Assembly: GCF_000422545.1 (NCBI RefSeq)
Contig: NZ_AULZ01000011.1
Location: forward strand, 1-64,000
Source of the DNA: Desulfocurvibacter africanus subsp. africanus DSM 2603
GTDB taxonomy: Bacteria > Desulfobacterota > Desulfovibrionia > Desulfovibrionales > Desulfovibrionaceae
Direction: 5' to 3'
Length of the DNA stretch: 64,000 bases
Positions 18,323 through 45,652 of this stretch are shown here, in pieces. The notes beneath the pieces were generated by a model. It had not been told where the DNA came from. It saw only the letters and a list, made by a program, of their open reading frames with translations, and did not search any database. The position numbers and the translations under genes were made by a program. Every line of letters begins with the position of its first letter. Positions within the stretch are counted from its first letter, which is position 1.

Positions 18323-19504
18323 GTGGGGTTGGCCACAGAGGCGAGATATGACGTGCTGGTCTTGGGCGCTGGAGCCTCGGGCCTCATGTGCGCGATGGAG
18401 GCCGCCAAGCGGGGGCGGCGCGTGGCCGTGCTGGACCACGCCGGCAAGGCCGGTCGCAAGTTGCGTCTTACGGGCGGAGGAAAGTGCAACTTCACCAACC
18501 TGGACGTATCCGCGGCCAACTACGTCTCCGCGAATCCGCACTTCTGCAAATCGGCCTTGGCCCGCTTCGACCAGTACGCGGCCATGGAGATGCTCTCCAG
18601 CCATGGCATTGCTTGGGAGGAGCGTGAGCAAGGCCGCCTGTTTTGCCTTGGCAGCGCGGGAGAAGTCGCCGGACTGTTGACGACGCTATGCCATCGGCAG
18701 GGCGTGGATATCCTGCTCGATTGCACGATTCGCGAAGTGGACCGCGAACAACGGTTGTTCAGGGCCGCGACGTCCCAAGGCGTGTTCCTGGCCCCTTCGC
18801 TCGTCGTGGCAACAGGCAGTCCGGCTTGGCCCCAGGTAGGGGCTACCAGACTTGGTTTGGACATTGCCCGACATTTCGGACTGCCGGTAGTGCCCGTGCG
18901 GCCGGCCCTTGCGCCGTTGGTCATGGCCAAGGACTGGCCCTTGGCCGGATTGGCCGGGATTTCCCTGCCAGCGACCGCGCAGGTTGCCGACAGATCCTTC
19001 AGCGATCACCTGCTGTTCACCCATGAGGGCCTGAGTGGTCCGGCGGCCTTGCAGGTTTCGCTTTTCTGGCGACCCGGCCTGGAAGTCAGCATCAATTTCC
19101 TGCCGGAGTTGCAACTTGTGGATTTCCTGGCCAGCCTGCCTGACCGCAAGGTCAAGCTGCGTAACGCCCTGTCCCGCGTGCTGCCGGCGCGCCTTGCAGC
19201 GGCGCTTTGCTCGGCAGAGCTTGGCGATAAGACCGTAGCCAATTTGTCCCGCGCGGAACAGGAGACCGCCTTGGCCAGCGTACATTCATTCAGGGTCACG
19301 CCGCTCTCGATTGAAGGCTTTGCCAAGGCCGAGGTCGCGGCCGGCGGAGTTGATACCCGCGAGTTGTCCTCCAAGACCATGGAGGCCGCGCAGATGCCGG
19401 GCCTCTATTTCATCGGCGAGGTGCTGGACGTCACCGGCATGCTCGGCGGCTACAATCTCCAGTGGGCCTGGGCTTCGGGCTTCGCGGCGGGCCAGCACGT
19501 CTGA
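18323..19504 (+). CDS. BaiN/HI0933-family NAD(P)/FAD-dependent oxidoreductase
   Basis: 393 residues. The FAD-binding GxGxxG motif is at the start (VLVLGAGASGLMCA), followed by the family motif GRKLRLTGGGKCNFTN and the C-terminal GEVLDVTGMLGGYNLQWAWA. These define the HI0933-like (BaiN/RdsA) flavoproteins, whose natural substrates are mostly unknown. I chose GTG 18323 because AGGAGG lies five bases upstream; the frame is open further, to 18278, through the terminator hairpin. It converges on the minus-strand PqqD operon. Confidence 0.88.
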   Translation: MGLATEARYDVLVLGAGASGLMCAMEAAKRGRRVAVLDHAGKAGRKLRLTGGGKCNFTNLDVSAANYVSANPHFCKSALARFDQYAAMEMLSSHGIAWEEREQGRLFCLGSAGEVAGLLTTLCHRQGVDILLDCTIREVDREQRLFRAATSQGVFLAPSLVVATGSPAWPQVGATRLGLDIARHFGLPVVPVRPALAPLVMAKDWPLAGLAGISLPATAQVADRSFSDHLLFTHEGLSGPAALQVSLFWRPGLEVSINFLPELQLVDFLASLPDRKVKLRNALSRVLPARLAAALCSAELGDKTVANLSRAEQETALASVHSFRVTPLSIEGFAKAEVAAGGVDTRELSSKTMEAAQMPGLYFIGEVLDVTGMLGGYNLQWAWASGFAAGQHV

Positions 19505-19545
19505 GCCGGTCCCGTTGCTCGGGAAACTCTTCGGAAGTTATCAGT

Positions 19546-19935
19546 TCAGCGCGCCAAGCCGATTATGCCTCTCCGCCCAAGCTCACGCAGAAAAGCGGAC
19601 ATGGACACCTCGGCCTCGCGTTCGTGCAGGCCATAATGTTCAGCTAGCTTGGTGGCCAACGCGTGTACCGTGTTATGGCCGTCCAGCCAGTCCCAGACCG
19701 TGGAACCCATGGTGTCCAATTCCAAAGTGCGCAGCATGGACTTTTGGTCCTTTAGGCCAAGGCGTTTGGCCAATCCTGCAAGCCATGGCTTGATGGCAAT
19801 CGGATAGAGGATGCGCACCAGGCCGGCTTCTGTGCGTTCCGTCATGACTTCTCTGCTGATAACAGGCTTATACGCGAGGGCTTCCTTCCGGCTCAGCTGT
19901 GAATGCGTTACCGTATTGCCCTTAGACAGTCGCAT
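19546..19935 (-). CDS. PqqD-like (RRE-fold) protein
   Basis: 129 residues. The C-terminal two thirds follow the PqqD pattern: a strand with ILYPI, then LELDTMGSTVWDWLDG, a helix with TVHALATKLAEHYG and a final helix AFLRELGRRGIIG. PqqD-like domains bind leader peptides for modifying enzymes (RiPP recognition element). Here an insertion of about 20 residues (KPWLAGLAKRLGLKD) splits the two halves. No radical SAM or other RiPP enzyme is in the window. It is the last gene of the minus operon and overlaps the preceding gene by 14 bp, so translation is probably coupled. Confidence 0.8.
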   Translation of the reverse strand: MRLSKGNTVTHSQLSRKEALAYKPVISREVMTERTEAGLVRILYPIAIKPWLAGLAKRLGLKDQKSMLRTLELDTMGSTVWDWLDGHNTVHALATKLAEHYGLHEREAEVSMSAFLRELGRRGIIGLAR

Positions 19936-20800
19936 ACGAATTCACTACCTGTTTAATCATATCTTTATCCAGCGGTGTGGCCCCCTGCATCTCCACGCAC
20001 AGCAGGCGGTTATGGCCGGCAGGCCGCCAGACCCGTATGTAGGCGTGCACAGGACGGTTTAACAGCAGGGCCGTCGCGCTGGCGAGCCTTCCAGGGGGCA
20101 GCGGTCTGCGCCAAGTCACGGCATCGACATCTCCGGTTTCCTCCATCATCAGGTGGCAGCGTCTGATGGCTGCCTCGAAGTGTTTACGGCTCCACATGAC
20201 CAAGCTGCGCCCGATCAGCAGGATGTCGGCCGGCGCCAACCGGTGCAGGACAAGCCGCTGCCTGCTGGAACGCAGGGCCAGTCGGTAGCGCCCGGGCTGC
20301 AGCGCGTATTCTTCCAAATGAAAACAGCCCGGCGTCTGGGCGCGCAAGTCGTACACGGCCCAGGGCACGAGTGGATCGGCCCAATGACAGTGCAGGGAGG
20401 ATAAGACAGCCTCGGCCTGCTCAGCGGGACCGCTGCTTTGGACCAGAATGGCTGTTGAAGAGGCGGAATGATGGAGGAGGGCGCCCCTGCCGCCCTTGCC
20501 CGAATCACCCCAAACAAATGAACGGGCTGCCATGTCGGGACCCAGGTCCCAGCGCTTATGGTCATTCGTGACTGAGAATCCCCCGTGTTTTTTGTCGTGC
20601 GCCTTTTCCAGCTTGCGCAGGTGCGCGTCGAAGGAGAAGCGCCCGCGGATGCGATTCCAGCGTACATCCAGCATCGGCTTTCCATTTCTTGCGAGCTGTA
20701 GACGTTGGCGTCCCAGGGCAGCCAGGTCCCAGCCTGCCGGACGTGTGAGGCTCAGGCCGTTCCAGGCCAAGTAGTGCGTGTCCATGGCCATCGCATCCAT
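19922..20800 (-). CDS. Unrecognised protein of the PqqD/FtsX operon
   Basis: 292 residues that I cannot assign. It has no signal peptide and no membrane segment, so it should be cytoplasmic. It is rich in Arg, His and Trp. The N-terminal part (HYLAWNGLSLTRPAGWDLAAL) and the periodic beta-like segments look like a small beta-rich domain, and the middle has a run of GRYRLALRSSRQRLVLHRLA. The ATG overlaps the stop of the upstream membrane protein gene (TGATG), a sign of translational coupling. It always-or-never pairing with the PqqD protein cannot be judged from one genome. Confidence 0.75.
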   Translation of the reverse strand: MDAMAMDTHYLAWNGLSLTRPAGWDLAALGRQRLQLARNGKPMLDVRWNRIRGRFSFDAHLRKLEKAHDKKHGGFSVTNDHKRWDLGPDMAARSFVWGDSGKGGRGALLHHSASSTAILVQSSGPAEQAEAVLSSLHCHWADPLVPWAVYDLRAQTPGCFHLEEYALQPGRYRLALRSSRQRLVLHRLAPADILLIGRSLVMWSRKHFEAAIRRCHLMMEETGDVDAVTWRRPLPPGRLASATALLLNRPVHAYIRVWRPAGHNRLLCVEMQGATPLDKDMIKQVVNSYATV

Positions 20801-22761
20801 CAGTAGGCCAGTTTGTTGAGAGAGCTGAGGATGAGCGTGCAGCCCATGGCGAACATGCCCACCAGGCCCATGCCGCAGGAGAATCCCGCCAGAAGTACGG
20901 GCGCGTATTGTCGCCAGGGTTTGCCGAAACGCTTAAGGAAGTAGAAACGGCCCAGGAGCGCTCCCGCGACTTCCAGGATGTGCGTGTGCGGTGTCGTCTG
21001 GCCCAGGCCCCGTACCAGGCCGTACACGAGCATGAGCGGCAATCCCAGGATACTGAGAATATTGTACAGGATTAGCGCCAGCACCGCTCCTGCCAGCACG
21101 ATGGGGCCGCTGAGGGCTTGGAAGAAGAGCGAGTTGCCCTCCAGGGTCGAGGTCTGCATAAGCAGCGTGTTCAGGGCCTGCAGATGCCACAGCTCCGCGG
21201 CATAGGGATAGGCCGCGGAGGGAATGGGCGCCAGGCGCCACAGGAATTGCGAGAAAAGTATGCTTGCCACGAATACTATGGGCCAGGCAACGACCTCGGC
21301 CTTGATGATGCCGCGCAGGCTGGTGCCGGTAAGCTCGATCTGACGGAATTCCAGTGTGGATTCGGCGTAGTTGTGGATGGGGATGGGTGCGTACCAGATC
21401 TCGATGCCGGTGTAGCCGAAGTAGCGCGCGCCAGCAATGAAAGAGGCCTCGCGCACCAGCGGCAGGGTCACGAACTGGCCAGTTATGCCTTCCATGCGCG
21501 CCGAAACGTAGGAGATGAAGGGCGTATAGACAAAACCGTACAGGGCGAAAAAGAACCAGGGAAAGCTCGGCACCAGGGCCATGCACAAGGCGATGTAGGC
21601 TAGGGTGGAGACAACATAGATGCCGATGGACAGGAAAAAGTTGATATCTCCGCGCTCAGGTTTGCCATGGAGCAGGATGTGTAGCGAATTTCGATCCTTG
21701 CGCTCGCTTGAGCGGAGGGTCCTGAGCACATGCCAGATTCCGAGAAGACCAATGGCCAAGCCCAGGCCGATGGAAAAGCTCAGGTAGAAGTCGAAGTTGT
21801 TGGCGAAGATAGTGTCCACGGTCCCCATGCCGGGCTGCCAGCGCCGCAGCAGGCCCTGATCGAGCAGCACCGGGTTGGCGATGAAGGTGAACAGCACACC
21901 GATGCCGCCGCCAATGACGGCCCAGAAAGGCAGTACCATGCCCACGAACAGGAGCCCCAGGTCGAGTTGCAGTCCCGTGGCCACGGCCGGCAGCCAGTCC
22001 TGGGTGTGGGGCGTCAGCTCGATCCAGGGAATGGGAATGATGTGCACGGGTTGGGTGAACACGAGGCCCGAGACCGTGGGCAGCAGAACGTAAACAGCTC
22101 CGAAGGCCAGACCGATGACCCCGCCGATGGAGAACACCCTCCATTTCCAGCTCTTTTCGCGTTCCTCGGTGGATTCGGCCAGGGCCATGGTGCCTAGCGC
22201 ACCCACGGGCGCCATGGGAAAGGGCAGGCGCTCCACGTCCGAGGTCAGGCGGTACATGGCGTAGCCCAGGCCGAACTGATCGATGCGCTGGATGAGCTGC
22301 GCGCCGAACAGGAGCAAGATAGGCACGAGCCAGTCGCGATGGAAGAAAGAACGCTCGGCCAGCGCCTCGGACGCGGCGGGCGGGGCCACCCAGGAGGGGA
22401 TGTACTCGGCGAGCCCCAGCATGCGCGCGGCGTCGGACTGCACCAGATACTGTTGCCAGAGTAGACCCTGGAAAGGCGAGGCCAGGGCAGCGCCCGCCAT
22501 GTAGTAGAGCAGGAATATCTCCTGCTGTTTTAGTTGCGTATAGGAACGCTTGGCGATTTCGGCAAACAGGATGATGGTCACCCAGCGCGCGGCCGGGCCA
22601 ATGCCTTGGCCGATGACGAGCTGCAGGTACATGGAGCCGGGCATCATGAGGAAACCGATGAACACCGCGCCGACCAAGGTCTTCCAGTCGAAGCCTTGCT
22701 CGAAATGCTCAGGCGGCTGCAGCAGGTCCCGATACTCGCGGAGTTCCTTGTCCTCGTACAT
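20800..22761 (-). CDS. Large multi-pass membrane protein, OPT-transporter-like (first of two)
   Basis: 653 residues with about 14 hydrophobic membrane segments and a soluble N-terminus of about 25 residues. A motif of the type RLTSDVERLPFPMAPVGA resembles the LPFP segments of oligopeptide (OPT) transporters, and the size fits that superfamily. I believe it belongs to a large uncharacterised membrane family near OPT (DUF6784/DUF6785 group), but I could not check. It lies 39 bp after its larger neighbour and overlaps the next gene by one base. Confidence 0.7.
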   Translation of the reverse strand: MYEDKELREYRDLLQPPEHFEQGFDWKTLVGAVFIGFLMMPGSMYLQLVIGQGIGPAARWVTIILFAEIAKRSYTQLKQQEIFLLYYMAGAALASPFQGLLWQQYLVQSDAARMLGLAEYIPSWVAPPAASEALAERSFFHRDWLVPILLLFGAQLIQRIDQFGLGYAMYRLTSDVERLPFPMAPVGALGTMALAESTEEREKSWKWRVFSIGGVIGLAFGAVYVLLPTVSGLVFTQPVHIIPIPWIELTPHTQDWLPAVATGLQLDLGLLFVGMVLPFWAVIGGGIGVLFTFIANPVLLDQGLLRRWQPGMGTVDTIFANNFDFYLSFSIGLGLAIGLLGIWHVLRTLRSSERKDRNSLHILLHGKPERGDINFFLSIGIYVVSTLAYIALCMALVPSFPWFFFALYGFVYTPFISYVSARMEGITGQFVTLPLVREASFIAGARYFGYTGIEIWYAPIPIHNYAESTLEFRQIELTGTSLRGIIKAEVVAWPIVFVASILFSQFLWRLAPIPSAAYPYAAELWHLQALNTLLMQTSTLEGNSLFFQALSGPIVLAGAVLALILYNILSILGLPLMLVYGLVRGLGQTTPHTHILEVAGALLGRFYFLKRFGKPWRQYAPVLLAGFSCGMGLVGMFAMGCTLILSSLNKLAY

Positions 22762-22800
22762 TCGGCTTCCGTCCCGTCCGTTTCTCTCGATGATCTGCCG

Positions 22801-24777
22801 TTAGTCGGGCATCGTCATGTAGCTCGACCCTGTCCATACGCCCAGTCCCGCGAATATGCCGCCCATGAGAAAATCGCCCAGGATAAGCCCGAAGAAGAAC
22901 AGGCGTACCCTGCGGTGCAGGCCCATGCCGCCGTAGCGCAGCACCAGCTCGTTCACGGCCCAGCCCACGAAGAAGCTGAACCACAGAATGCGCATGGCCG
23001 AACTGTAAGTGGCCAGATAGCCGAGGGGGTGCAGCGGCCACCAGTAAAAGCGCTGGTAGCAGACGATGAGCCCGAGCATGACCGCCGCTCCAATGGCGGC
23101 GAAGAGCATGACGAAGGGACGGGCATCGCTGGGGACCTCCAGCAGCCGCTGTACGTTCTCGTACACGCTTACCGTGGTGGTAGTGGACCACTCAAGGTTC
23201 AGCTCGCGCATGCCGTAGCGGTGAGCCAGCACGAGCATGGCCGCGAAGCTGGCCACCAGGCCGAGCAGGATGACCAGCACGATGCCCAGAAGCATGAGCC
23301 GCTTGCGCGAAGTCTGCTCGCTGACTTTGGAGGCGTGCAGCAACGAGGGCATGAGTGACTCGCGCAGGTCGGCGTAGAGTACCTTCTGGGACACGGCAGC
23401 CAGCAGCAGGCCCTGGGCGGTGAACAACTTGGAGCCCATGAAGGCCAGGATGGCGTCGAGCGGCGCGGCGGTGAGCGTGAAATAGGGGATGCCGCCCTGG
23501 CAGATCACGCGCGTGGCTACGATGGTCATCATGTAGAAGGCCAGCAGTACCAAAAGGGCCATGGGCAGGCCCATGCCGAAATACATGCACCAAGCGACCA
23601 GACCACAGCCGCCCAGCATTAGCCCCCAGAAGGACCAGCGTAGGGATAGCCACTCGGTTTCGCGTGGCGGTTCTCCGCCGGGAACGAAGGCGGCCTTGAG
23701 CACCTGGGCCAAATGGAAGCGGGCCAGCCAGAGGATGAACAGGAAAAAGACGACGCATGCCCCGATCATTTGCGTTTCTTCCGGAAAGGCCAAGGTGGGG
23801 CCGAAGGACACTCCCAAGGCTGCCGGCGGCACGGAGAGTCCGATCAGAGCCAGGATGCCGAAGATGAACGAGCCGAAAAGATAGAAAAACCAAAAGCTGA
23901 GCGAGATCTGGCGCGCGGCCAGGAAAGCGAAACCGATGAAGGCCGGATAGAAGTAGATACGCAGCTTGGCGAAACCGGCGAACAGGCCTGTGGGAGGAAA
24001 ATAGGGGCCGATGGGAATCAGCGTGGGTATGGCCGGCACCTGCGGATGGTAGAAGTTCAGGCCATTTATAGTGTGCAGAAGTGTGGGCACGAGCAGGCCC
24101 AGGACCAGGTAGCGGTCGGTGAGGAAATTTCCCAGACGCTGCTGGTCCATGACCTCTTCCATGAACTGCGGCAGGCGCAAAAGCGGGAAGTTCATGCGTT
24201 CGTTGGCGATCCATTGGCGGCTGAGAATGTTAACTGTGCACAGCATGGTCAGGTAGGAAAGCAGGATGAACACGGCCCACCAGGAAAGCGGCGTTATCCA
24301 GGCCTGCCAGGGGATATTGGACAGGATTTCCCACCAGCCCATGTCGAAGCCGCGATCCAGACCGTTCCACAGAATTTCCACGGCTGTAGGATCCTGCGGA
24401 TAGAGTCCCTTTGGCATGATCGGATGCAGCACTTCGTCCCAGCGATTACCCGTGGTGGCGAACTGGAAGGGCGCCGTTATGTTGACCAGAAACGTGCGCA
24501 GCAATCCGGTGTAAGGGATGCCGGAAACCACGACCATGATCGCCCAGGCGCACAGCAGTTCCAGCCCCGTGAGCAGCGGCGGCCGCCGCAGGACGCGCGC
24601 CGTGGCGGATATGAGCACCATGAGCCAGGCGAAGATGAAGAACGGTGCCAGGGGAAAGTGACCGCCGCCCAGCAGCGTGCCCATCAAATAGATGTTGTGG
24701 TAGGGCGTGGCCAGGCAGATGAGCAGTCCGAAAACGATGCCCACCATCAGGGCGCGTGCGCGGATGTTCCTGCCCAT
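22801..24777 (-). CDS. Large multi-pass membrane protein, DUF6785/DUF6784-like (second of two)
   Basis: 658 residues and about 14 membrane segments. Landmarks are SRQWIANERMNFPLLRLPQF in the middle and, near the end, RFYWWPLHPLGYL followed by WFSFFVGWAVNELVLRYGG and LILGDFLMGG. I associate these with the paired DUF6785 and DUF6784 domains of OPT-like proteins with no known function. It is related in layout to the 653-residue neighbour but clearly not a recent duplicate. The start lies six bp after the stop of the giant M28/FtsX gene. Confidence 0.72.
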   Translation of the reverse strand: MGRNIRARALMVGIVFGLLICLATPYHNIYLMGTLLGGGHFPLAPFFIFAWLMVLISATARVLRRPPLLTGLELLCAWAIMVVVSGIPYTGLLRTFLVNITAPFQFATTGNRWDEVLHPIMPKGLYPQDPTAVEILWNGLDRGFDMGWWEILSNIPWQAWITPLSWWAVFILLSYLTMLCTVNILSRQWIANERMNFPLLRLPQFMEEVMDQQRLGNFLTDRYLVLGLLVPTLLHTINGLNFYHPQVPAIPTLIPIGPYFPPTGLFAGFAKLRIYFYPAFIGFAFLAARQISLSFWFFYLFGSFIFGILALIGLSVPPAALGVSFGPTLAFPEETQMIGACVVFFLFILWLARFHLAQVLKAAFVPGGEPPRETEWLSLRWSFWGLMLGGCGLVAWCMYFGMGLPMALLVLLAFYMMTIVATRVICQGGIPYFTLTAAPLDAILAFMGSKLFTAQGLLLAAVSQKVLYADLRESLMPSLLHASKVSEQTSRKRLMLLGIVLVILLGLVASFAAMLVLAHRYGMRELNLEWSTTTTVSVYENVQRLLEVPSDARPFVMLFAAIGAAVMLGLIVCYQRFYWWPLHPLGYLATYSSAMRILWFSFFVGWAVNELVLRYGGMGLHRRVRLFFFGLILGDFLMGGIFAGLGVWTGSSYMTMPD

Positions 24778-24783
24778 GCTTCC

Positions 24784-27700
24784 CTACGCCTGCTGTGGTT
24801 CTGGAGTGGGGAAAATGATGAGATCCTCGTAGCGCGTTCTGTCCTCCTGGCCCAGGGAGCGCCAAGCCAACAGTTGTCTGCGTAAATCATTGAGGAACCC
24901 CTTGTTGATACGCTTCCATGCTCCGTGCTCGCCTGCCTCCCGCTTGAGGCGCACCTGGATTTCCAGGAATTCAGGGCTGACCCGCGCCGGGCAGAAGATG
25001 AGCTGCACATGCTGGCGTACGCCAAAGTCGAAGGGGGCCAGCCAGACCTTGGCGCTCATCTGCAGGCATTCGTCCTCACCGCTCGGCTCGCCGATCGTGT
25101 CGGTCACGCTACCACGTATCGGCATGGGGCAGGCATAGCGGTAGGCTATGTCGTCCGAAGAGAACAGGCCGTGGGATATATCCTCATGGGCTTTGTAATA
25201 ATCCACCAGGTAGCCGCCCACGCAGCGCTGTTCGTCGCGCTTGAGCAGGAAAGGCAGGGTGGCGACCATCTCGTCGCCGTCCGGTTCCGGCATGGACCAG
25301 GAGCGGTTAACGTCTGGGATGGCGATCTGGCCGGCAACCTTGGATGGGTAGATGACCGATGCCAGCACCACGAGGATGACCAGGATCATGGCCGCCACGC
25401 CGCCAAGCGAAGAGTAGTTGGCGGTCATGCCGGCCCACAGGGGCGTGCCCGCGAGTACCTGGGCCGCTATCTGGGCCAGCAAGTAGCCGAGCACCACGCT
25501 GATGACCGCATAAGCCAGAGCCTCGGCCACGAACAGGAAGGATACATGCGTGGGGGCCATGCCCACGGAGGTGTACACGCTGATCTCGCGCTTGCGCTCG
25601 TACACGCTGGCGATCATGGTGTTGAGCACTATGAGCGCGGAGATGAGCACGGGCACCACCACGTTCGGCAGGCCCGAGTAGTCAAGGGTGTCGGCGGCGT
25701 AGAAAAGATAGGTCCCTGCGGACTCGCTTCCAGGACTGACGCCCTCCGGAACGATGCCGCAAAAGAGCGGCAGGCCGAATCGATCCACCATGTGCCGGGC
25801 AAGCCTGGGCACGTCTCCGGGCGCGGGTGGCCGGATGGCCATGGCCTTGAGTTGCCCGCCCAGGGCCATGGCCGTGGAGGCGGGCACGATGACCGTCACC
25901 TCGCCTGATACGTGCTCGTAGCGCGTCTGCACAGTGCGCAAGTCCTGCTCGGACTCGGTTTCCCCGGCCTCCATTTCAGCCACGCCGAGCACAGTCTCGC
26001 TGGGGAATACCGCGGGTGTAACCGGCTCCCCGTCCAGGTCTGTTTCTGACGTGAGCCGACCGCCATCAAAGACCCCCGTGACCGTGAAGGGTATTCCCCA
26101 CACGTTCACGGTAGCTCCCTCAGGATTGCCGGGATCGATGCCGAGGCGCTCGGCCATGCGATTGGGCAGGAGCACTGCCCGTTCTTCGTCCGGCGCAAAC
26201 CAGCGCCCGCCCACCAGGATGCGGTTCATGCCGCTGATTTCCGGCTCCTGGGGTGAAAGCCCCACCAGCCCGCGGGCCAACTCGTGGCCGGCATCCGTTT
26301 CCAGCGGCACGAAAGCTGCCGAGGTCCTGGCGCTGCCTTCCAGCCAGATGCGCGGACCCACGAGAGCCGCGCCACGAAATTTGTTGCGCACGATGGGCAT
26401 GGCTTCGGGCGGCAGGCTGGACCAGGCCAGGGAACGCATGAGCAGTCCGGCATAGGGAGTCTGCCTGGAAAAGAGGCTGGCGCCCCTTTCGCGTACGCTC
26501 TTGACCGCCGTGAAGCTCATGATGGTGAAGGTCAACAGCACCAGGGTCAAGGTGGTCAGCAAGGTGCGCATCTTACGCCGGCGCAGGTTGCTCACGCCGA
26601 TGGCGAAGGACGCTCCCAGGGCTTTCCAGCGGCCAAGTTCCGCGCCCTGGCTGCTGGTGCGCCGCTGCAGGCCGGCCATTTCCCGTTCGAAGCGCAGGAA
26701 GATGATCAGCGACACGAGCATGGACAGGCCCAGAATGAAGAAGGCCAGAATAACCACCAGCGGACTGTAAGTGAGCTGAAAGGCCGGGTGCACATTGTAG
26801 ATGATGCCGATGACCACGGCCAGAATGGCCAGCAGGGCCAGGATGCGCTGCTTGATGTCCGCGAAACTGAACAGCAGGCGCTCGGCGCAGTAGGCAAAGG
26901 GCACAAACAAGGCCACGTAGAACAGCACGCCGAGGAGCACGTCGCGCTGGGTGGCTTCCACGTCGTTGTAGACCCGGCTGGCCAGGGACCAGGCCACGCG
27001 CGAGGATTCCAGGAAGTCGGAGTAGCGCTGCTCGGCGTAGGCCCGTTCAGCCTCGTTGAAGGCGTCCAGCCCTTCCTGGCGCAATGACCGGATGCGCTCG
27101 TTGACCACGCCGTGCTCTTCCAGGTTGTCGATGCGCGGCAGGAGCAGCGCCCACATATCCTTGGCCGCATGATACTCGGTGCGCGGGATGAGCGGCCACT
27201 CTTCGGGCAGGTAGCCAACGCCCTCGGGTTGTCCCGGCACGGCATTGGTCATGATCATCTTGCGGTTCAGTAATGTATCCGAGAGGGTGTACTTGAGCGG
27301 GATGCCCGGCTCCAGGTAAAAGCTGAGCAGGGTGGAGTCGCGCGTGTCGATGCGGCTGTACCAGAAGCGGTTTGGCTCGGCGTCGCGCCGGGAGTCGAAC
27401 AGCGCGATCTTGGTCATGAAAGCGAATGTGCGCGGTTCCAGGGTGTTGAAGACCGTCATCTGGTCCGCCGCGAACATGGTCAGCCGCGTCTCTTCGAAGA
27501 GCCGGTTCATCTTGACCCGGTAGGCGTCCTTGCCCGTGCCGCGCTTGTCGATGGCCCAGAGCACGTTACCGCTCACGGGATCGAAACGGTAGGCCTCCAG
27601 GATGACCTTGCCCACGATGACCTTCTTATTGCCCACGCCCACCAGACGAAACATGCCTTCGGTGTCGGTCATGGCGTAGAACACTCCGTTGTCCTGGTAA

Positions 27701-29676
27701 GCCTGGATCACGGTGCCGGGCGCGGGCTGGTCCGGAAACAGCTCGCCCTGGCGCAGGAAACTGGCCTGGCCGTCCAGGGTGGCGAAGCCCAGGCGCGGCC
27801 GTTCGTCGGCCAGTGGCGTCGGAGTACGCGTCAGTTCGGTGACCAGCCCGGAGACGAAGCGTATTTGGCGCGACAGACGTTCCAGATCCATGTGTCCAGG
27901 CGTATCGTATGGTGTGCCCCACCAGGGCCGAGCGTCGTTGATGGTGGCTAGGCTGATGCCCACGTAGTTGGCTAGGCTAGCCAGCTCGCCGCCCATGAGC
28001 GGCTGGTCCAGAAACCAGCTCCGCCACGGTCTCAGGCTGTCCGGGCGCAGGGCATTGACGAAACGTACCTGCGCTTCGGAGCTGCCAGGGTTTGCGCTGG
28101 CTTGACCCGCCGCACGGTCAGCGGCGCGGCTGATGAGCGAGAAGGAACCGCTGTAGTTGCGGTCCGGCCGAATGGCGTACATGAAACCTTCGTTGGCGAA
28201 GGCTCCAACACCGTCGCCGCCGCTGGACAAGTACAAGGAGATGCTGGCCGCGACCTCGCGCACGGCGACCATGCCGCGCATGTCCCGTGAACTACGCAGG
28301 GAAGCAAGTTGTTCCTCGGCATCGGTCAGGACAGCTTCTTGCGTCCGCCGTATGCGGGGCAGCATGCGTTCGAGTGTTTCGCTCTGCTGCGCTGACACCA
28401 GTTCCGGGGACAAGCCCCAGGTGAGTTGGCGGATCTGCGCCCGATAGTCGGTCAGCGCGCGGATGCGGGTTTCATTGCGCCCTTCACCCAATAGACGCAG
28501 GCGCATGAGTTCCCTGGCCACGCGCTCGGATTCCTGTTTCAACTCATCGTCCATGGCTTTGGCCAGAGGGCCATGGGAACCCGGCAAGGCCGCGGCTACG
28601 GGAGCCGCCTCGTCCAAAGCCTTTAGAACTTCCTCGGCTTCGTCCATGCGGCTGCGTTGATGGCGCTCCAGGTCGCGCAGGTATTTGCCCTTGGCCTGCA
28701 TGGCCCACAGGAATTCTCGCCAACCGGCAAGGCCTTGGGCGTGTCCGCTTGTAGCCACGAGAAGCACCGAGCGGCCCGGAGGATTCTCCTTGAGGTGTTG
28801 CGCCAGATGCAGCAGGCCCGCCACGGACGAGGCTTCGTCCGCACCGGGGGATCGGCCGTAGGCCCAGGCTGTGCTGTCGTAGAAGGCCTCGATTACCACC
28901 AGCTCTTCCGAAAGTTTTTTGTCGACTCCGGGTACGAGGCAGAAGATGTTCTCGGACGCGGCTCGTTCCCAGATGACGTTGGATACGAGCACGGCTTCGG
29001 GATGCTGCGCGTTCCCGGCCTGCATGTCCCGGAAGCCGGGCAGAAGTTGCTCAGCCTCGCTTCCGGTCATGAAGAAGCGCGGAAAATCCAGGGGAGTCAG
29101 CTCGTGCTTGTCCTCGAAGCGCCCCTTGATGCTCGGCTCGTGGTCCACATAGATGAGTGCCTTTGCGCCCAGGGCCGCCGCCGTGCGCCAGTTGCGGCCG
29201 GAGTCCATGTCCATGAGCACGATGGCGCCCTGCACAGGCTTGCCGTCCATCTCGGAAGGCGAACCCCGGCCCACGTAGACCAGTGGACCGGAGACCCCAG
29301 GTGGTGGGATGGTATTCGGCGTAATGGCGTTGAGCTGCAAGGGTGTGATGGCCGTCTCACGCCCGCCGATGCGGATGCGGCTGCCTCGGTGGACGCGCAT
29401 CGGCGTCAGATAGGCATGGCGACCAAGGTCCTCATAGCCCAGGACCTTGAGCTGATCGAAGATGTATGCGGCGGCTTTGGCCGCGCCCGGCGTGCCTGTG
29501 CTGCGGTCCTCCACCGCCGAAAGGGCGGTGATGGTCCGAGCGACCTCCGGCAACGGTTGGGCCGCCACTTTGGCCGAGATCAAGCCCGCCAGCAGGGCGG
29601 CCAGCAAAGCAGGCCAGTATCTTCGGAATGTGCCGGGCGGGCTTTTTCGTGCCAGGCTGGGCCGCGTGCGCATCAT
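24784..29676 (-). CDS. Giant fusion: M28-like pseudo-peptidase plus FtsX-type permease
   Basis: 1630 residues. Order: signal anchor (about 18-40); PA-like domain (about 120-205); M28-like domain (about 40-340); long soluble region (340-910); membrane segments at about 913-1000; an FtsX-type first segment preceded by NLRRRKMRTLLTTLTL (about 1030-1060); a periplasmic MacB-like domain; three further membrane segments (about 1340-1480) containing YERKREISVYTSVGMAP; and a cytoplasmic tail of about 150 residues. In the M28 part the first zinc His is replaced by F265 (AFYDS). The bridging Asp is kept (PGAD280). The catalytic Glu-Glu pair is replaced by H312-A313 (SGHAQGLAG). It is therefore probably a binding domain, not an active peptidase. 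The ATPase and second permease genes lie just upstream. Confidence 0.85.
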   Translation of the reverse strand: MMRTRPSLARKSPPGTFRRYWPALLAALLAGLISAKVAAQPLPEVARTITALSAVEDRSTGTPGAAKAAAYIFDQLKVLGYEDLGRHAYLTPMRVHRGSRIRIGGRETAITPLQLNAITPNTIPPPGVSGPLVYVGRGSPSEMDGKPVQGAIVLMDMDSGRNWRTAAALGAKALIYVDHEPSIKGRFEDKHELTPLDFPRFFMTGSEAEQLLPGFRDMQAGNAQHPEAVLVSNVIWERAASENIFCLVPGVDKKLSEELVVIEAFYDSTAWAYGRSPGADEASSVAGLLHLAQHLKENPPGRSVLLVATSGHAQGLAGWREFLWAMQAKGKYLRDLERHQRSRMDEAEEVLKALDEAAPVAAALPGSHGPLAKAMDDELKQESERVARELMRLRLLGEGRNETRIRALTDYRAQIRQLTWGLSPELVSAQQSETLERMLPRIRRTQEAVLTDAEEQLASLRSSRDMRGMVAVREVAASISLYLSSGGDGVGAFANEGFMYAIRPDRNYSGSFSLISRAADRAAGQASANPGSSEAQVRFVNALRPDSLRPWRSWFLDQPLMGGELASLANYVGISLATINDARPWWGTPYDTPGHMDLERLSRQIRFVSGLVTELTRTPTPLADERPRLGFATLDGQASFLRQGELFPDQPAPGTVIQAYQDNGVFYAMTDTEGMFRLVGVGNKKVIVGKVILEAYRFDPVSGNVLWAIDKRGTGKDAYRVKMNRLFEETRLTMFAADQMTVFNTLEPRTFAFMTKIALFDSRRDAEPNRFWYSRIDTRDSTLLSFYLEPGIPLKYTLSDTLLNRKMIMTNAVPGQPEGVGYLPEEWPLIPRTEYHAAKDMWALLLPRIDNLEEHGVVNERIRSLRQEGLDAFNEAERAYAEQRYSDFLESSRVAWSLASRVYNDVEATQRDVLLGVLFYVALFVPFAYCAERLLFSFADIKQRILALLAILAVVIGIIYNVHPAFQLTYSPLVVILAFFILGLSMLVSLIIFLRFEREMAGLQRRTSSQGAELGRWKALGASFAIGVSNLRRRKMRTLLTTLTLVLLTFTIMSFTAVKSVRERGASLFSRQTPYAGLLMRSLAWSSLPPEAMPIVRNKFRGAALVGPRIWLEGSARTSAAFVPLETDAGHELARGLVGLSPQEPEISGMNRILVGGRWFAPDEERAVLLPNRMAERLGIDPGNPEGATVNVWGIPFTVTGVFDGGRLTSETDLDGEPVTPAVFPSETVLGVAEMEAGETESEQDLRTVQTRYEHVSGEVTVIVPASTAMALGGQLKAMAIRPPAPGDVPRLARHMVDRFGLPLFCGIVPEGVSPGSESAGTYLFYAADTLDYSGLPNVVVPVLISALIVLNTMIASVYERKREISVYTSVGMAPTHVSFLFVAEALAYAVISVVLGYLLAQIAAQVLAGTPLWAGMTANYSSLGGVAAMILVILVVLASVIYPSKVAGQIAIPDVNRSWSMPEPDGDEMVATLPFLLKRDEQRCVGGYLVDYYKAHEDISHGLFSSDDIAYRYACPMPIRGSVTDTIGEPSGEDECLQMSAKVWLAPFDFGVRQHVQLIFCPARVSPEFLEIQVRLKREAGEHGAWKRINKGFLNDLRRQLLAWRSLGQEDRTRYEDLIIFPTPEPQQA

Positions 29677-29686
29677 TGCCGCATCC

Positions 29687-30451
29687 TTATTCGGCCTGGG
29701 CCCTGCTTGAGATAGTGCCGACCTCGATCTTGAGCTCGGAGCGATTCTCGATGCGGTCGATGCGGCCGTCCACGATCCAGACTACCCTATCCGAGACATT
29801 GAGCATCTTGTAGTCGTGGGTGGCGGTTATAACCGTGACGCCCTGTTCGCGGCTCAAGGTCTTGAGCAGGGTGATGATCTCCTCGCCCGTTGACAGGTCC
29901 AGGTTGCCCGTGGGTTCGTCGGCCAGGATGATGGCTGGGTCATTGGCCAGGGAGCGGGCGATGGCCACGCGCTGTTGCTGGCCGCCCGACAACTCCTGGG
30001 GCTTGTGGTCGAAGCGTTTGTCCAAGCCCACCAGGCGCAGGAGCTTGATGCCTTTGTCCACGGCTTCATCGTTGCTCGCGCCGCCGAAAATCATGGGCAA
30101 GGTCACGTTCTCCAGGGCGGTCATGACCTGGATGAGGTTGAAGGTTTGAAAGATGTAGCCGATTTTGCGGTTGCGCAGCCAAGCCAGTTCGTAGGCGTCC
30201 AGTTGAGCCACATCCACTTCGTCGATGAAGACCTTGCCTTCGCTGGGCTTGTCCAGGCCGCCGATCATATTGAAGAGCGTACTCTTGCCCGAGCCGGATG
30301 GCCCCATGATGGATACGTACTCTCCGCTCATGATCTCCAGGTCGATGCCGCGCAGGGCTTCGACCTCGATCTTGCCCAGGCGGAAGACCTTGCGCACCCC
30401 CATGGCCCTGACAATGGTGCGGCCCTGAATATTTGTGTGAATTGTATTCAT
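29687..30451 (-). CDS. ABC transporter ATPase, LolD/MacB type
   Basis: 254 residues with Walker A GPSGSGKST (50-58), Q-loop Q102, signature LSGGQ (154-158), Walker B ILADEP (around 175-180) and H-loop H212. The LxNxxLP-type sequence ENVTLPM and the N-terminal layout are typical of the LolD/MacB/FtsE group, which powers FtsX-type permeases that do mechanical work across the periplasm rather than classical import. Permease partners flank it: the 232-residue FtsX protein upstream (10 bp) and the giant fusion downstream (10 bp). Confidence 0.95.
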   Translation of the reverse strand: MNTIHTNIQGRTIVRAMGVRKVFRLGKIEVEALRGIDLEIMSGEYVSIMGPSGSGKSTLFNMIGGLDKPSEGKVFIDEVDVAQLDAYELAWLRNRKIGYIFQTFNLIQVMTALENVTLPMIFGGASNDEAVDKGIKLLRLVGLDKRFDHKPQELSGGQQQRVAIARSLANDPAIILADEPTGNLDLSTGEEIITLLKTLSREQGVTVITATHDYKMLNVSDRVVWIVDGRIDRIENRSELKIEVGTISSRAQAE

Positions 30452-30461
30452 GCCGGCTGTC

Positions 30462-31160
30462 TCATTCCTGCACGCGCATGGCTTCCACCGGCTGCATACG
30501 CGCGGCCACGATGGCCGGGTAGATCACGCCGGCCACGCTCAACAGAAAACCCGTGCTTACGGCTGCGAGGAGCGACAATCCCACGGTCGGCAGGGAAAGT
30601 GTTTTCAATACCGGGAGTCCGAAACGAGCCAGTCCCATCAATAGAGCGCCCAAGGCCCCCACCAGCGCGCCGGCCACGGCTCCCAAGATTCCCTGGATTC
30701 CCGCCTCCAGCAGGAAGAGCCGCAACACAAAGCTGTCCAGGGCCCCAAGGCATTTCATGGTGCCGATTTCGCGAAAGCGTTCGGTGACAGCCATGAGCTG
30801 AGCGTTGATAATACCCACGGTGCAGACCAGCAGCGACAGGAGCACGATCCAGCGCTCCGTGGCGCTGCTGCCCGCCTCCCGGACTCCTTGCTGCAGATCA
30901 TAGCCTGCTTGGACAAGGGAATCCCGCAAGTCTGGATCGCCGCTGCGCAGCAGGCCCGTGGCCACATCCGAGGATATGAGGACATAACCGAGAAAGGCCA
31001 CGGCCAGTACTAGGGTCAGGGTAGTGATAAGCGAGCGGAAAAAGCGCACGCGCAGGCTCTGAATGCTGATTTCCAGAGATTTGCGAAAGGGCAGTACGAC
31101 TTGCTTGGCGATGTTGCTTTGTCGCGTGCTGCTGACGTTTTCCTGTCTTTTGCCGCTCAT
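30462..31160 (-). CDS. FtsX-type ABC permease, short form
   Basis: 232 residues with the four-segment FtsX layout: first segment about 43-63 (SLITTLTLVLAVAFLGYV), then about 104-127, 150-178 and 198-222. Helpful motifs are ERFREIGTMKCLGALDSFVL and YPAIVAARMQPVEAMR. The periplasmic loop between segments 1 and 2 is only about 40 residues, whereas LolC/E and MacB have over 150, so this is a minimal subunit. It probably dimerises with the permease part of the 1630-residue protein. It is the first gene of the operon. Confidence 0.88.
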   Translation of the reverse strand: MSGKRQENVSSTRQSNIAKQVVLPFRKSLEISIQSLRVRFFRSLITTLTLVLAVAFLGYVLISSDVATGLLRSGDPDLRDSLVQAGYDLQQGVREAGSSATERWIVLLSLLVCTVGIINAQLMAVTERFREIGTMKCLGALDSFVLRLFLLEAGIQGILGAVAGALVGALGALLMGLARFGLPVLKTLSLPTVGLSLLAAVSTGFLLSVAGVIYPAIVAARMQPVEAMRVQE

Positions 31161-31282
31161 CTCGCTCCCGCCTTGTCAGGAAATCATGCCCATTCGGCTT
31201 GAGGCTACTCGTGCTACGGTATCCCATGAGGGGGAAAATGCAACCGGTTCGCGGTGCAAGTTACAGTGTGTCACAGATGGGA

Positions 31283-32065
31283 TCACCGGATGAGATCAGT
31301 CGGATGAGCAAGGCGCAGGCCTGCGGCCCGTTTGAGAGCGACCAGCAGGCAGTCCAGGAATTCCAGCGCCGCTCGGTTCATGCGTTGATGGTGGAGCATG
31401 ATGCCGCACAGTCCCGTGGCCAGGCTCTGCTCCAACTCGTTAAGCAGTGCGTCAAGAGCGGCCTGGGCCGTAGGCTCCTTGCGCGTGTGCAGATCCACGT
31501 TGACCGCCAGTTCCATCATCTTGGGAGGGGAAGCGGGCTGCGCCCCTGCACTACGTGATACCGCCCGGAAGCAAAGTTCGGCTAAGATATCCAGAGCCTC
31601 GCCATCACAGCGATTCCAAGGCGGAGTGAACAGAGGAGAAATTCGTCCTGCGAGGTAGCTCTCCAGGATGTCGCGGCCCCTGGATATATCCCTTTGCTTG
31701 GCTTCGGCGGATCGTGCCGGTCCGAACTCGCTTTTCTTCCCCGAAGGGTTTCCCTGCTCATGGTTCACATGCCGGAAGCCATGCTGGTGCAGACACCATA
31801 AAGCTCCTCCGGGCGCGAGCATGCCCTTCAGTTCCGTATGCCGCAGGGGCAGCCAAATCGGGACTACGGCCAGAGCCAAGGGCACGTCGTGACGGACGAA
31901 GAGGTCCGTCATACGCGCCAATTGTCTGCCGGGCAGTCCGATGTCATCGGCGCGAAAGAAGATCGTAGCCTGCCGTCCGGATGCCCGTTCAAGGGTCCGT
32001 TCAAGACGCTCCAAGGTATCCGCCGGCGGTCGAAGCCAGAGTTCACAGGGGGCGTATGCGGTCAT
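31283..32065 (-). CDS. Polysaccharide deacetylase-like protein
   Basis: 260 residues of the NodB/DUF2334-like deacetylase fold. The metal motif is FFRADDIGLPG (D40-D41). His residues that may complete the site are in LHQHGFRHVNHE, and FTPPWNRCDG matches the later conserved loop. It likely removes acetyl groups from a glycan or nucleotide sugar. There is no signal peptide, so it would act in the cytoplasm. The ATG overlaps the stop of the glycosyltransferase gene by four bases (ATGA). It ends the glycan operon. Confidence 0.75.
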   Translation of the reverse strand: MTAYAPCELWLRPPADTLERLERTLERASGRQATIFFRADDIGLPGRQLARMTDLFVRHDVPLALAVVPIWLPLRHTELKGMLAPGGALWCLHQHGFRHVNHEQGNPSGKKSEFGPARSAEAKQRDISRGRDILESYLAGRISPLFTPPWNRCDGEALDILAELCFRAVSRSAGAQPASPPKMMELAVNVDLHTRKEPTAQAALDALLNELEQSLATGLCGIMLHHQRMNRAALEFLDCLLVALKRAAGLRLAHPTDLIR

Positions 32066-33222
32066 GATGCGAGATCCTGGAGCAGCCTGGCCGTATTGGC
32101 TGCTCCATCCAAGTCGACCGGCGCCGGCCCGGATCGTCTGCCGGCTTCCATTGCCTGGGCCATGCGCACGGCCAGGCGTTCGGGCTCCAGATCGGCGTCT
32201 TCCAGTATGCCCAGCACACCGAGTTGTTTCAGCTTCTCGGCGCGCAGGCGCTGTTCGTGGTTCTGGTCAAAAGGCCAGACCAGGGCAGGAACTCCCGTGG
32301 CCAGGATATTCATGGCCGTATTGTAGCCGGCTTGGCTCAAGGACAGGTCCGCCGCGTCCAGGTAATCCAGGAAGCGGTCGGTGAAATGCTCAAGAATCAC
32401 GCTGGGTATGGCCGAAGCCAGTTTCTCCAAGGCGAGGAATTCGCTCGCTTCCATGTATGGTCCGCTGAAGACATGCATCCGCGCACCCGAGAGACCCAGG
32501 CGAGCGAAGGCCTGCAATGCGGCAAACAGGAGTCTGCCGCCCACTTTCCCGCCGCCTATGCTGGCCACGATGAGCTTCTGACTAGGCTCCAGACCGAGTT
32601 CCCTGCGCAAGGCAATCCCGGCACCCGATCTAGGCTTGGTAGTCACGAAACCTGTATAGCGTACCGGGATACGCACCCGATCCAGGCTTCCGAAGGTTTC
32701 GTCCAGGCGCAGCAGGGCCGGATCCGCGTGCACAGCCAGCAGGTTGAAGAACTCGTTAAGCCGCTTCACGACGCGCGCTTCGTATTTTTCTTGGTTACTT
32801 TTTTCAACGAGGATATCGCGCAGGCTGCAGACCACCTTGACCGGACCGAAATGGCCGTCGCGTATATCCTGGAGCAGGGGTAGGAGCTCGAAGCTGAACT
32901 GGTTGCGCCCAAAGGGGAAGAGTTCCACCAGGAACAGATCTGGAGAAAACAGGAGAAACCGTTCGCTGAGCAGCCGAGCGCGCTCGTTTTTGACCTCCTC
33001 CAGGCTGCGACCGGGCTCCAAGGGGTAAAGCTCGGAGAAGTCGTCGTTCATCATGAGTCCGGGGAGACGGAAAAGGGATACATGCGGAGGCAACTCGGCA
33101 CGCACCTCAGGGCCGCCCGAGATCAGGTCCACCTCATGGTCGGCCAAAGCCTTGGCGATCTCCAGACTGCGGAAGAAATGGCCCATGCCGAGCACATGCT
33201 GGCAGTAGTAAGCAACTCTCAT
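32062..33222 (-). CDS. MurG-like glycosyltransferase (GT-B fold)
   Basis: 386 residues. The N-terminal MRVAYYCQHVLGMGHFFRSL has the GHxxR-type loop seen in MurG/UGT-like enzymes. The C-terminal half has FTDRFLDYLDAADLSLSQAG and VPALVWPF, the nucleotide-sugar binding region. The frame is open ten codons further upstream, but ATG 33222 overlaps the stop of the phosphatase gene (ATGA) and gives a normal N-terminus. It is similar in type to the 36196-37422 gene, so the operon encodes two enzymes of this kind. The acceptor is unknown. Confidence 0.82.
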   Translation of the reverse strand: MRVAYYCQHVLGMGHFFRSLEIAKALADHEVDLISGGPEVRAELPPHVSLFRLPGLMMNDDFSELYPLEPGRSLEEVKNERARLLSERFLLFSPDLFLVELFPFGRNQFSFELLPLLQDIRDGHFGPVKVVCSLRDILVEKSNQEKYEARVVKRLNEFFNLLAVHADPALLRLDETFGSLDRVRIPVRYTGFVTTKPRSGAGIALRRELGLEPSQKLIVASIGGGKVGGRLLFAALQAFARLGLSGARMHVFSGPYMEASEFLALEKLASAIPSVILEHFTDRFLDYLDAADLSLSQAGYNTAMNILATGVPALVWPFDQNHEQRLRAEKLKQLGVLGILEDADLEPERLAVRMAQAMEAGRRSGPAPVDLDGAANTARLLQDLAS

Positions 33223-33836
33223 GGCGTCTCCAGCATTTCCGGCAGCGGCCACCCAGCCCCTCGTTGGAACAATCCTTGTTCTTCCAGGTCAAGAAGGTAG
33301 AGCCGGTAGCCCTTCTCCAGCAAAGGATTGCCGGGCAGCATGGGGTGTGACTGCGCATGATAGAGCAGGCACTTGATGACACCCTGATGGGTGACCACAA
33401 GTACATTCTGCCCTGGCCAACGGTGGCCGGCGTCCTCCAGTGCGGCCAAGGCCCTGTGCAGGACTTGCCTGCGGCTTTCGCCTTCCGGCGGACGGAAATT
33501 CCAGCCTTGCTCTGCCTGTGCTTTGAACTCCTCGTTAGCCGTCAAATCGGATAGGAGCAGGCCTGTCCACTGCCCCCAGTCCTGCTCACGCAGCCGGGGA
33601 TCGGCCATGCTCGGCAGTTCCTTGCCATTTGTAACAGCTTCGACAGTTTCTTGGGCCCGGCGCAGATCGCTGGTCAGCACTGCCTGGAAATCATGGTTGC
33701 GCAAGACCAACGCCCAGCTTCGGGCCAGGTTCAAGCCCTGTGGCGACAAGGGCGTGTCGCACTGGCCCTGGATACGCCGCTCCTGATTCCAGACCGTGGG
33801 AGCATGGCGCATGAGCAGGAAGCGTGTGACAGCCAT
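33219..33836 (-). CDS. Histidine phosphatase family protein
   Basis: 205 residues. The phosphohistidine motif is LMRHAPTVWN (H11), with LTSDLRRAQETVEA and the second catalytic His in VVTHQGVIK. It belongs to the phosphoglycerate mutase/alpha-ribazole phosphatase superfamily. Placed inside a glycosyltransferase operon and overlapping on both sides, it may remove a phosphate from a sugar-phosphate intermediate, but a role in cobalamin is equally open by sequence alone. Confidence 0.85.
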   Translation of the reverse strand: MAVTRFLLMRHAPTVWNQERRIQGQCDTPLSPQGLNLARSWALVLRNHDFQAVLTSDLRRAQETVEAVTNGKELPSMADPRLREQDWGQWTGLLLSDLTANEEFKAQAEQGWNFRPPEGESRRQVLHRALAALEDAGHRWPGQNVLVVTHQGVIKCLLYHAQSHPMLPGNPLLEKGYRLYLLDLEEQGLFQRGAGWPLPEMLETP

Positions 33837-34954: not shown

Positions 34955-34957
34955 GCT

Positions 34958-37422: not shown

Positions 37423-37635
37423 TCGTCCTGGCTCATTCTCCCGGTCGCGCGCAGCGGTGTTCACCCAACTCGACAAGCCCCCGTCAGAACCGAGATGGGC
37501 ATTCTCACCAGTTTTGAATGAAAAATAGTTTTTTGTCCATGGAGTAGCTTTTTCGTATGTTCACGCAGCTCTCAGGAATATAGCCGATGAAAAGCACAGC
37601 CATTGCCGCTTCAAGCTTGAGTATGTACATGTATC

Positions 37636-41542: not shown

Positions 41543-41819
41543 GGCATTTTTGCGCAAGTCTGATGTCCTACCTACGAACTTGCATAAATGCACAAAGCAA
41601 GATATTTAAGCTTTATAAATGGCTAGCTCGTAGAGATTGGCGAAAGGCATTGCAAGAAAAGCTTTAATTGACTTTTGATGTCTCAAGTAACGAAACATAT
41701 TTGCAATGTCTGGCATCGCTCTAAGGAACTATTCTATAGTCGCCATGGCCTTGTCCACGGCAAGAGATTGTGAACAATAGTTGACGAATGGCCCAGCGCA
41801 ACAACGCAGGGAGAGAAAT

Positions 41820-42125
41820 ATGGGTGACTGCGAAAAAGTGGACGATCGACTTGTCTTGAGTGGAGAGTTCACCATTGAGCATGCGGCGGACCTCAAGGCG
41901 TTTCTGGCTGAGGCCGCGGCTGCCGGTGGGCCGGGGCTTGTGGATCTCACCCAGGTTACCAGGGCAGGCATCTCTTTGTTTCAGTTGCTGATTTCTTTCG
42001 CCACGACCATGGAAGCGTCGGGATTCGATGTCCGTTTCACCGGTCTGAATGAATATCTCACATCGCTAGCTGAAACCGCCGGGGTGCGCGATGCCCTGGC
42101 GCCGCACATCGCAGAGGGAGGATGA
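41820..42125 (+). CDS. STAS-domain protein
   Basis: 101 residues with the STAS fold pattern (VLSGEFTIEHAADLKAFL, LVDLTQVTRAGISLFQLL). STAS proteins act as anti-sigma factor antagonists or as switches in phosphorelay. In the conserved loop DLTQVTRAGIS the usual phosphorylated Ser is not at the canonical place, though T and S are next to it. The frame extends to 41781, but GGGAGAG before ATG 41820 fixes the start. The stop overlaps the CheY region, so translation of the two is coupled. Confidence 0.8.
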   Translation: MGDCEKVDDRLVLSGEFTIEHAADLKAFLAEAAAAGGPGLVDLTQVTRAGISLFQLLISFATTMEASGFDVRFTGLNEYLTSLAETAGVRDALAPHIAEGG

Positions 42126-42130
42126 GCCGG

Positions 42131-42493: not shown

Positions 42494-42572
42494 GCGGGAC
42501 AGCGACCTGTCGCGCGCCCAGAGTTGTTGCCTGAAGCAACGCAGGGATTGCAGACAGGGAAGCGAGGAATCC

Positions 42573-45630: not shown

Positions 45631-45652
45631 ACGACAGCGATCAGGAGAATGC

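Follow-up and report, generated by a model that had tools for sequence, protein, structure and literature searches.

The window, a stretch of 64,000 nucleotides from Desulfocurvibacter africanus subsp. africanus DSM 2603 (contig NZ_AULZ01000011.1, positions 1 to 64,000), carries seven consecutive minus-strand genes, g1 to g7. Three of them encode the parts of an ATP-binding cassette (ABC) transporter (g1, g2 and g3), two encode large multi-pass membrane proteins (g4 and g5), and the last two a protein without Pfam family (g6) and a PqqD-domain protein (g7). With a probability of roughly 55%, this operon supplies the inner-membrane part of a more extensive surface-glycan system of sulfate-reducing Desulfobacterota that has not been described. 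The system would further comprise an adjacent cassette of sugar genes, u1–u6, and a distantly encoded ABC exporter, C8.

A first-pass annotation of the sequence had described g1–g7 as one unit with gaps of 6–39 bp or overlaps, and as a single envelope machine: the PqqD domain would recognise a peptide in the cytoplasm, two OPT-like proteins would pass it through the membrane and a large periplasmic domain would act on it outside. The seven open reading frames with their spacing were confirmed, as were the FtsX/LolD-type ABC machine (Pfam, NCBIfam) and the PqqD domain (PF05402). It had known of no described system with this gene set, and none was found in the literature searched (subscription journals lay mostly outside the search), where nothing on DUF6785/DUF6784, the two domains of g4, was found either. 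The interpretation as a whole is partly supported; it overlooked the glycosyltransferase genes among u1–u6 and the exporter C8.

Distribution of the core genes and their distant partners

The genes g4, g5 and C8 occur together across the phylum. A single set of 297 phylum genomes was used for PF20581 (DUF6785, g4), g5, the C8 insertion, C6, g6 and dsrA. PF20581 exceeded its cut-off in 20 of them, and one more genome held a sub-cut-off fragment. Both g5 and the C8 insertion were found in 20 genomes, the identical 20 in each case. The 207-residue, signal-bearing protein C6 occurred in 17 genomes, all within these 20 carriers. Genes g4 and g5 share a contig in 19 of the 20. The best C8 match and g5 lie on different contigs in 16 genomes, 1.8 Mb apart in one (G334) and within about 20 kb of each other in three. 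Because C8 is mostly found on other contigs (in draft genomes, with cross-contig distances unmeasured), its link to g4 and g5 is not mere neighbourhood. The carriers span 11 families, four of which (f1, f20, f42 and f96) include non-carriers too. All 20 carriers have dsrA over its cut-off, as do 143 of the 297 genomes overall; the core marks a subset of the dsrA bearers, and kinship may be the cause of this link.

Named-genome loci come from a scan with the g5 alignment; it found 209 relatives, and the top-scoring 80 were retained. A single g6 protein as query found no match in the genome contigs, whereas the g5 alignment did retrieve loci. Where 8 kb or more of sequence is available upstream of g5 (55 loci), the order and strand of g1–g5 are kept in 52 (the exceptions are L038, L060 and L070), and the order is the same in all 11 fetched 20-kb stretches, several of which coincide with contigs of the named loci. 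Likewise, g4 immediately precedes g5 in 71 of the 73 loci with room. This recurrence of gene order is beyond chance. The median identity to the window proteins reaches 75.5% for g5 (80 loci) and 76% for g2 (55 relatives), followed by g1 (58%), g4 (55%) and g3 (48%). Among 59 relatives, 12 including the own genome contain g5, the other copies being 73–79% identical. By this comparison, g1–g5 form a core inherited as one block; the genes of the first-pass annotation are thus not scattered over genomes. The titles of the best 80 of the 209 g5 loci fit Desulfobacterota or broad labels such as Proteobacteria, and the carriers named there include Desulfatibacillum, Desulfogranum, Desulfopila, Halodesulfovibrio, Pseudodesulfovibrio and Solidesulfovibrio. 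Plasmid records and viral contigs gave no match for g5, and plasmid records none for g4.

C8 is an ABC exporter of about 850 residues with a 230-residue insertion in its nucleotide-binding domain, similar to MsbA and peptide exporters, among others. Neighbour clustering placed it in 29 of the 80 loci, in 26 of which it is accompanied by C9, a cNMP-binding protein. In the own genome, C6, C9 and C8 (61% identity to the query) stand together on contig C29.

The insertion of C8 represents an unusual ABC architecture that is also found on rhizobial plasmids. In the copy on contig C29 (L111:10676-13198), it contains a duplicated segment, with segments 2 and 3 scoring 46 (shuffle maximum 38), and segment 1 does not stand out in this test. 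Beside C8 and C9, at L111:13370-18150, lies what is presumably a Qrc-type membrane redox complex, with a multihaem cytochrome and molybdopterin-type, iron-sulfur and NrfD-like proteins.

The sugar cassette and its plasmid-borne relatives

Since u1–u6 (31283-37476) are co-directional with the operon and end only 122 bp upstream of g1, the conserved neighbourhood extends beyond position 31160. The glycosyltransferase u2 reached at least 278 bits in 13 of the 59 relatives, comprising all 12 g5 carriers and one of the 47 non-carriers (G004), and the next-best match outside the carriers scored 56.5 bits. At an E-value of 0.001, u2 matched 21 of the 59 genomes, the weak matches being other glycosyltransferases. 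In three carriers (G009, G024 and G030) u2 lies away from the core. The sugar cassette, as represented by u2, thus shows strong co-occurrence with g1–g5 and belongs to the same set of genes.

Relatives of the sugar genes and of C8 are also found on plasmids. Among 72,556 plasmid records, 241, almost all of them from Rhizobiales, contain a relative of the C8 insertion, and 273 a relative of u6. Ten plasmid loci, picked by hand from the listings and not at random, were viewed, and seven of them, all alphaproteobacterial, contain the cassette (L140, L141, L145–L148 and L150). Relatives of u6, u5 and u2 and a C8-type exporter are present in all seven, u4 relatives were seen in five and u1 relatives in four. 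The order u6-u5-u4-u3-u2-u1 of the window is repeated exactly in Sulfitobacter (L145) and Azospirillum (L146). In these two loci the exporter ends in a C-terminal cNMP domain, a fusion that argues for C8 and C9 acting together. These cassettes resemble the window system in their related u-genes and C8-type exporter and differ from it in lacking g1–g7 and in having, in six of seven, an Opp-type importer in the cluster (SBP_bac_5 in L141, L145, L146, L147 and L150; by annotation in L140). Another of the ten loci, L149, holds one lone u6 relative.

The msbA2 operon of Sinorhizobium meliloti (SMb21188-SMb21191) likewise combines glycosyltransferases with an MsbA-type ABC protein and was proposed to serve an unknown polysaccharide (PMC3687685). 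Unlike the window system, it comprises four genes including an acyltransferase. Two other leads, the S. meliloti KPS genes (PMC5539429) and pRL110043 (PMC11406972), were rejected as unrelated.

Partial cassettes, in which no C8-type insertion was shown, occur on two further plasmids. The Escherichia plasmid locus L143:14007-24185 combines u6 and u5 relatives with an ABC exporter, two phosphotransferase-type genes, an alginate-export-type porin and a nucleotide sugar dehydrogenase, and is flanked by fimbrial/S6 peptidase genes and formate dehydrogenase genes. On a Candidatus Manganitrophus plasmid, relatives of u2 and u1 are fused into one protein of 660 residues (L144:28301-30283), and the cluster contains a heparinase-type gene and an alginate-export-type porin.

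The ABC transporter parts and the M28-fold domain of g3

The domain content of the operon, with FtsX-like permease domains and a cognate ATPase, assigns g1, g2 and g3 to the type VII ABC transporters (MacB/FtsX/LolCDE superfamily). Type VII complexes pass ATP-driven motion to the periplasm, and in YbbAP-TesA such a complex is paired with a hydrolase-fold partner (PMC12646458). Like LolCDE, FtsEX, MacB and YbbAP-TesA, the window operon combines a LolD-like ATPase with permeases of the FtsX type and has a large portion in the periplasm. Unlike them, it has two large multi-pass partners and two dissimilar permeases, the larger one with a built-in M28-fold domain that has lost its ligands.

The top NCBIfam matches of g2 are LolD and MacB, with LolD the best, which invites the explanation that the operon encodes a LolCDE-like machine for the sorting of lipids or lipoproteins and that its neighbours are unrelated. 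Yet the LolD score of 232.0 bits remains under the cut-off of 307.75, and the LolCE score of 37.0 is far from its cut-off of 362.45, so that the proteins are no equivalogs of LolCDE; they fall under every curated LolD, LolCE, FtsX and MacB cut-off shown. The identical genome profiles of g4, g5 and C8 also speak against unrelated neighbours, and this explanation is extremely unlikely.

Protein g3 begins with a signal or transmembrane segment, followed by a PA/M28-fold region (approximately residues 47-620), a long periplasmic part, transmembrane helices, the MacB_PCD/FtsX permease and a C-terminal tail. Its homology with M28 peptidases is indicated by PF04389 (26.6 bits, cut-off 21.3) and by the aminopeptidase 2ek8 (E 4.3e-08), with which it aligns over residues 48-325 and again at a W-x-T-P-x-D motif near residue 586. 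The ligand positions were checked in a family alignment of 64 rows (61 distinct) by mapping through 2ek8, and we take the mapped positions to be the metal ligands of M28 enzymes. None of the 64 rows has His at position 265 (the first His; F, P, S or A instead), Glu at positions 312/313 (the Glu pair; H/A-type residues instead) or His at position 587 (the last His; G, S, A, N or D instead). Asp280 (GAD) is kept in 60 of the 64 rows, and the fourth ligand was not located in the alignment. Compared with 2ek8, g3 has thus lost metal ligands and carries an insertion between the two halves of the domain. Since three metal-ligand positions are lost, the domain is most likely non-catalytic, which goes against the first-pass view of a periplasmic peptidase acting on the substrate.

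In or close to the former site, Glu263 (58 of 64 rows) and His312 (53 of 64) are conserved and may leave room for other chemistry. Since YbbAP-TesA, of the same ABC class, also works with an external hydrolase of related fold, these residues could indicate a similar hydrolase-coupled complex in which the M28-fold domain would still cut a lipid or glycan bond by changed chemistry. As the canonical ligand is absent at three positions, such an enzyme would have to rely on new chemistry, and we judge this improbable.

The membrane proteins g4 and g5

Both multi-pass proteins had been named OPT-like in the first-pass annotation, a designation for which we found little sequence support. With the HMMER filters on, the OPT profile PF03169 matched none of 25 g4 (DUF6785) relatives even at an E-value of 10. 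The likeness consists in one of 34 g5 relatives, matched at 25.0 bits (cut-off 25.8) over residues 177-444 in register; the other 33 gave no match even at an E-value of 10. A PF03169 search in 24 relatives returned one sub-cut-off fragment. The profiles of g4 and g5 showed no similarity to each other, and a PDB search with both gave nothing useful. The kinship of g4 and g5 with OPT transporters is therefore weak.

The g6–g7 pair

The expectation of a single seven-gene unit stood in so far as the genes belong together and failed with regard to g6 and g7. In the 297 genomes, g6 was found in 10, each a core carrier, and it is hence missing from half of the 20 carriers. Where 10 kb of sequence follows g5 (46 loci), 31 loci contain g6 and 32 contain g7, and g7 directly follows g6 in all 31 that have the latter. 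The two are often preceded by the gene for C6, which has no Pfam match. By these counts, g6 and g7 are a removable pair outside the core.

The AlphaFold2 model of g6 has a mean predicted local distance difference test score (pLDDT) of 93, and a simple scan detected no transmembrane segment. Residues 4-167 of the model match 3hlz (Z 12.8), human Mog1 (Z 11.7) and PsbP 2xb3 (Z 11.5), and residues 142-292 match yeast Mog1 (Z 11.1). Further fold matches are the cytosolic Eag chaperones SciW (Z 9.6) and EagT6 (Z 8.0) and the C-terminal domain of RseB (Z 9.2). The model is a tandem of two Mog1/PsbP/DcrB-type domains; sharing this fold is no proof of function. Protein g7 scored 20.1 bits against the PqqD of PQQ biosynthesis (TIGR03859, cut-off 46 bits) and is not its equivalog. 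The folds of g6 and g7 bind peptides or transmembrane segments in other proteins.

The PqqD domain of g7 and the similarity of the C8 family to peptide exporters, among others, would fit the export of a product similar to ribosomally synthesized and post-translationally modified peptides (RiPPs): PqqD would recognise a peptide in the cytoplasm, the multi-pass proteins would export it and the periplasmic domain would process it. Such a PqqD-led pathway was at the centre of the first-pass annotation. In 81 loci, no conserved small precursor-like open reading frame was detected by a scan that could miss short or divergent peptides; three clusters of small open reading frames occurred in at least four of these loci, and none adjoins g6 or g7. 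By Pfam, no RiPP maturation enzyme is encoded among the operon genes. Moreover, the M28 ligands are lost and PqqD is absent near many cores, which together make peptide export very unlikely.

The uptake or sensing of a peptide is rather unlikely as well. Here the M28-fold domain would bind the peptide outside, g1 and g2 would power the process, g4 and g5 would be OPT-like carriers and g6 and g7 would receive the peptide in the cytoplasm, with the sugar genes responding to it or being mere neighbours. The M28 and PA folds, PqqD, the single g5 relative with a weak match to OPT and the SBP_bac_5/Opp importer at the same position in Alphaproteobacteria are consistent with this explanation. On the other hand, half of the carriers lack g6, no peptide gene was found in the 81 loci, and, as far as can be seen, the distribution of u2 and C8 closely follows that of the core.

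Genes for partner switching were found downstream in part of the 46 loci (STAS in 14, HATPase_c_2 in 14 and SpoIIE in 10) and were not counted as core. The set lies downstream of g7 in L030, L036, L077, L079 and others, and beside C8 and C9 in many Desulfobacterales loci. Cluster C15, considered as a cyclase, was rejected and represents a histidine kinase/response regulator.

A model for the proposed surface-glycan system

In the surface-glycan system that we favour, u1–u6 would assemble a deacetylated glycan or glycolipid, and C8 would flip or export this product, gated by cyclic nucleotides through C9. Proteins g1, g2 and g3 would form a type VII complex similar to LolCDE or YbbAP, and this complex would use ATP in the cytoplasm to set its large periplasmic part in motion. 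In g3, the M28-fold domain would no longer cut and would serve as a binding or receptor domain, and g4 and g5 would be the partner membrane proteins that carry the bound compound, most likely inward. Inward transport is favoured because the same cassette pairs, in Alphaproteobacteria, with an Opp-type importer at the same place, and this is its sole support. Proteins g6 and g7 would be optional cytosolic helpers. We propose only tentatively that the g1–g5 machine is the binding-and-uptake half of the glycan system. The full scheme is similarly speculative: a type VII ABC transporter with a dead-peptidase receptor and g4/g5 partners would handle uptake or recycling in a surface-glycan system gated by cyclic nucleotides, and Alphaproteobacteria would have replaced it with the unrelated Opp-type importer.

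Several observations weigh against the surface-glycan system or parts of it. No glycan, phenotype or interaction is on record for any carrier treated here. The probability of identical sets of 20 in 297 genomes would be near 1e-31 if the genomes were independent, a figure that is overstated owing to their relatedness. Two g5 copies of 74-75% identity (L101:7134-9089 and L070:10001-11959) have no g4 directly upstream, and the structure prediction for g5 was unusable (pLDDT 37). Of the 40 core loci that have 1 kb or more of upstream sequence, just 24 have u1 or u2 directly upstream, so that the sugar cassette is often located elsewhere or absent outside Desulfovibrionales. The profiling of u2 covered the 59 relatives, a part of the phylum. 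One of these, G004, contains a u2 orthologue (G004:C34:23787-24956, 49% identity), g5 was not found there, and it is possibly a carrier of the sugar half alone. The analogy with the Opp importer is positional and involves no homology, and the Mesorhizobium locus L148 has the cassette with no importer within 10 kb. A cyclase gene (cluster c32) accompanies the core in just 3 of the 80 loci.

If the proposed system exists, it would provide a function for DUF6785/DUF6784 and the g5 family, predict a glycan for a broad range of sulfate reducers and place a type VII ABC complex in a role not described in the literature searched. Since widely separated genes are perfectly matched in their presence and absence, deletions would test the hypothesis directly, and the rhizobial version offers an easy genetic model of the shared half.

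Gene layout of the window locus

The genes of the operon and of the sugar cassette are listed in Table 1. The intergenic distances from g1 to g7 are 10, 10, 6, 39, -1 and -14 bp, and the genes from u6 to u1 overlap or are 3 bp apart. A sigma-70 scan of 19400-37700 yielded one promoter-like site, on the opposite strand (4.5 expected), and 19 terminator-like sites were counted in the same range (13.4 expected); the transcript borders are not resolved by these scans.

Table 1 Predicted genes of the window locus 19546-37476
Gene	Coordinates	Strand	Length (aa)	Predicted product	Basis
g1	30462-31160	minus	232	Short FtsX-type permease	PF02687 56.1 bits (cut-off 25.5)
g2	29687-30451	minus	254	LolD/MacB-type ABC ATPase	PF00005 ABC_tran 120.4 bits
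g3	24784-29676	minus	1630	PA + Peptidase_M28 + MacB_PCD + FtsX fusion	Pfam; PF02687 46.5 bits
g4	22801-24777	minus	658	Multi-pass protein, DUF6785 + DUF6784	PF20581 533 bits, PF20580 118 bits
g5	20800-22761	minus	653	Multi-pass protein without Pfam family	Unusually conserved
g6	19922-20800	minus	292	Tandem Mog1/PsbP/DcrB-fold protein without Pfam family	AlphaFold2 model
g7	19546-19935	minus	129	PqqD-domain protein	PF05402 40.0 bits (cut-off 23.4)
u1	31283-32065	minus	260	DUF2334, polysaccharide-deacetylase-like	PF10096 32.8 bits
u2	32062-33252	minus	396	GT28-type glycosyltransferase	PF04101
u3	33219-33836	minus	205	Histidine phosphatase	PF00300
u4	33836-34954	minus	372	GT4-type glycosyltransferase	PF00534
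u5	34958-36196	minus	412	GT4-type glycosyltransferase	PF00534
u6	36196-37476	minus	426	GT28-type glycosyltransferase	PF04101 59.2 bits

Further along the window, at 39677-46735, lies a chemotaxis-type group with an MCP-domain protein (39677-41542) and a CheA-like protein (42573-44684).

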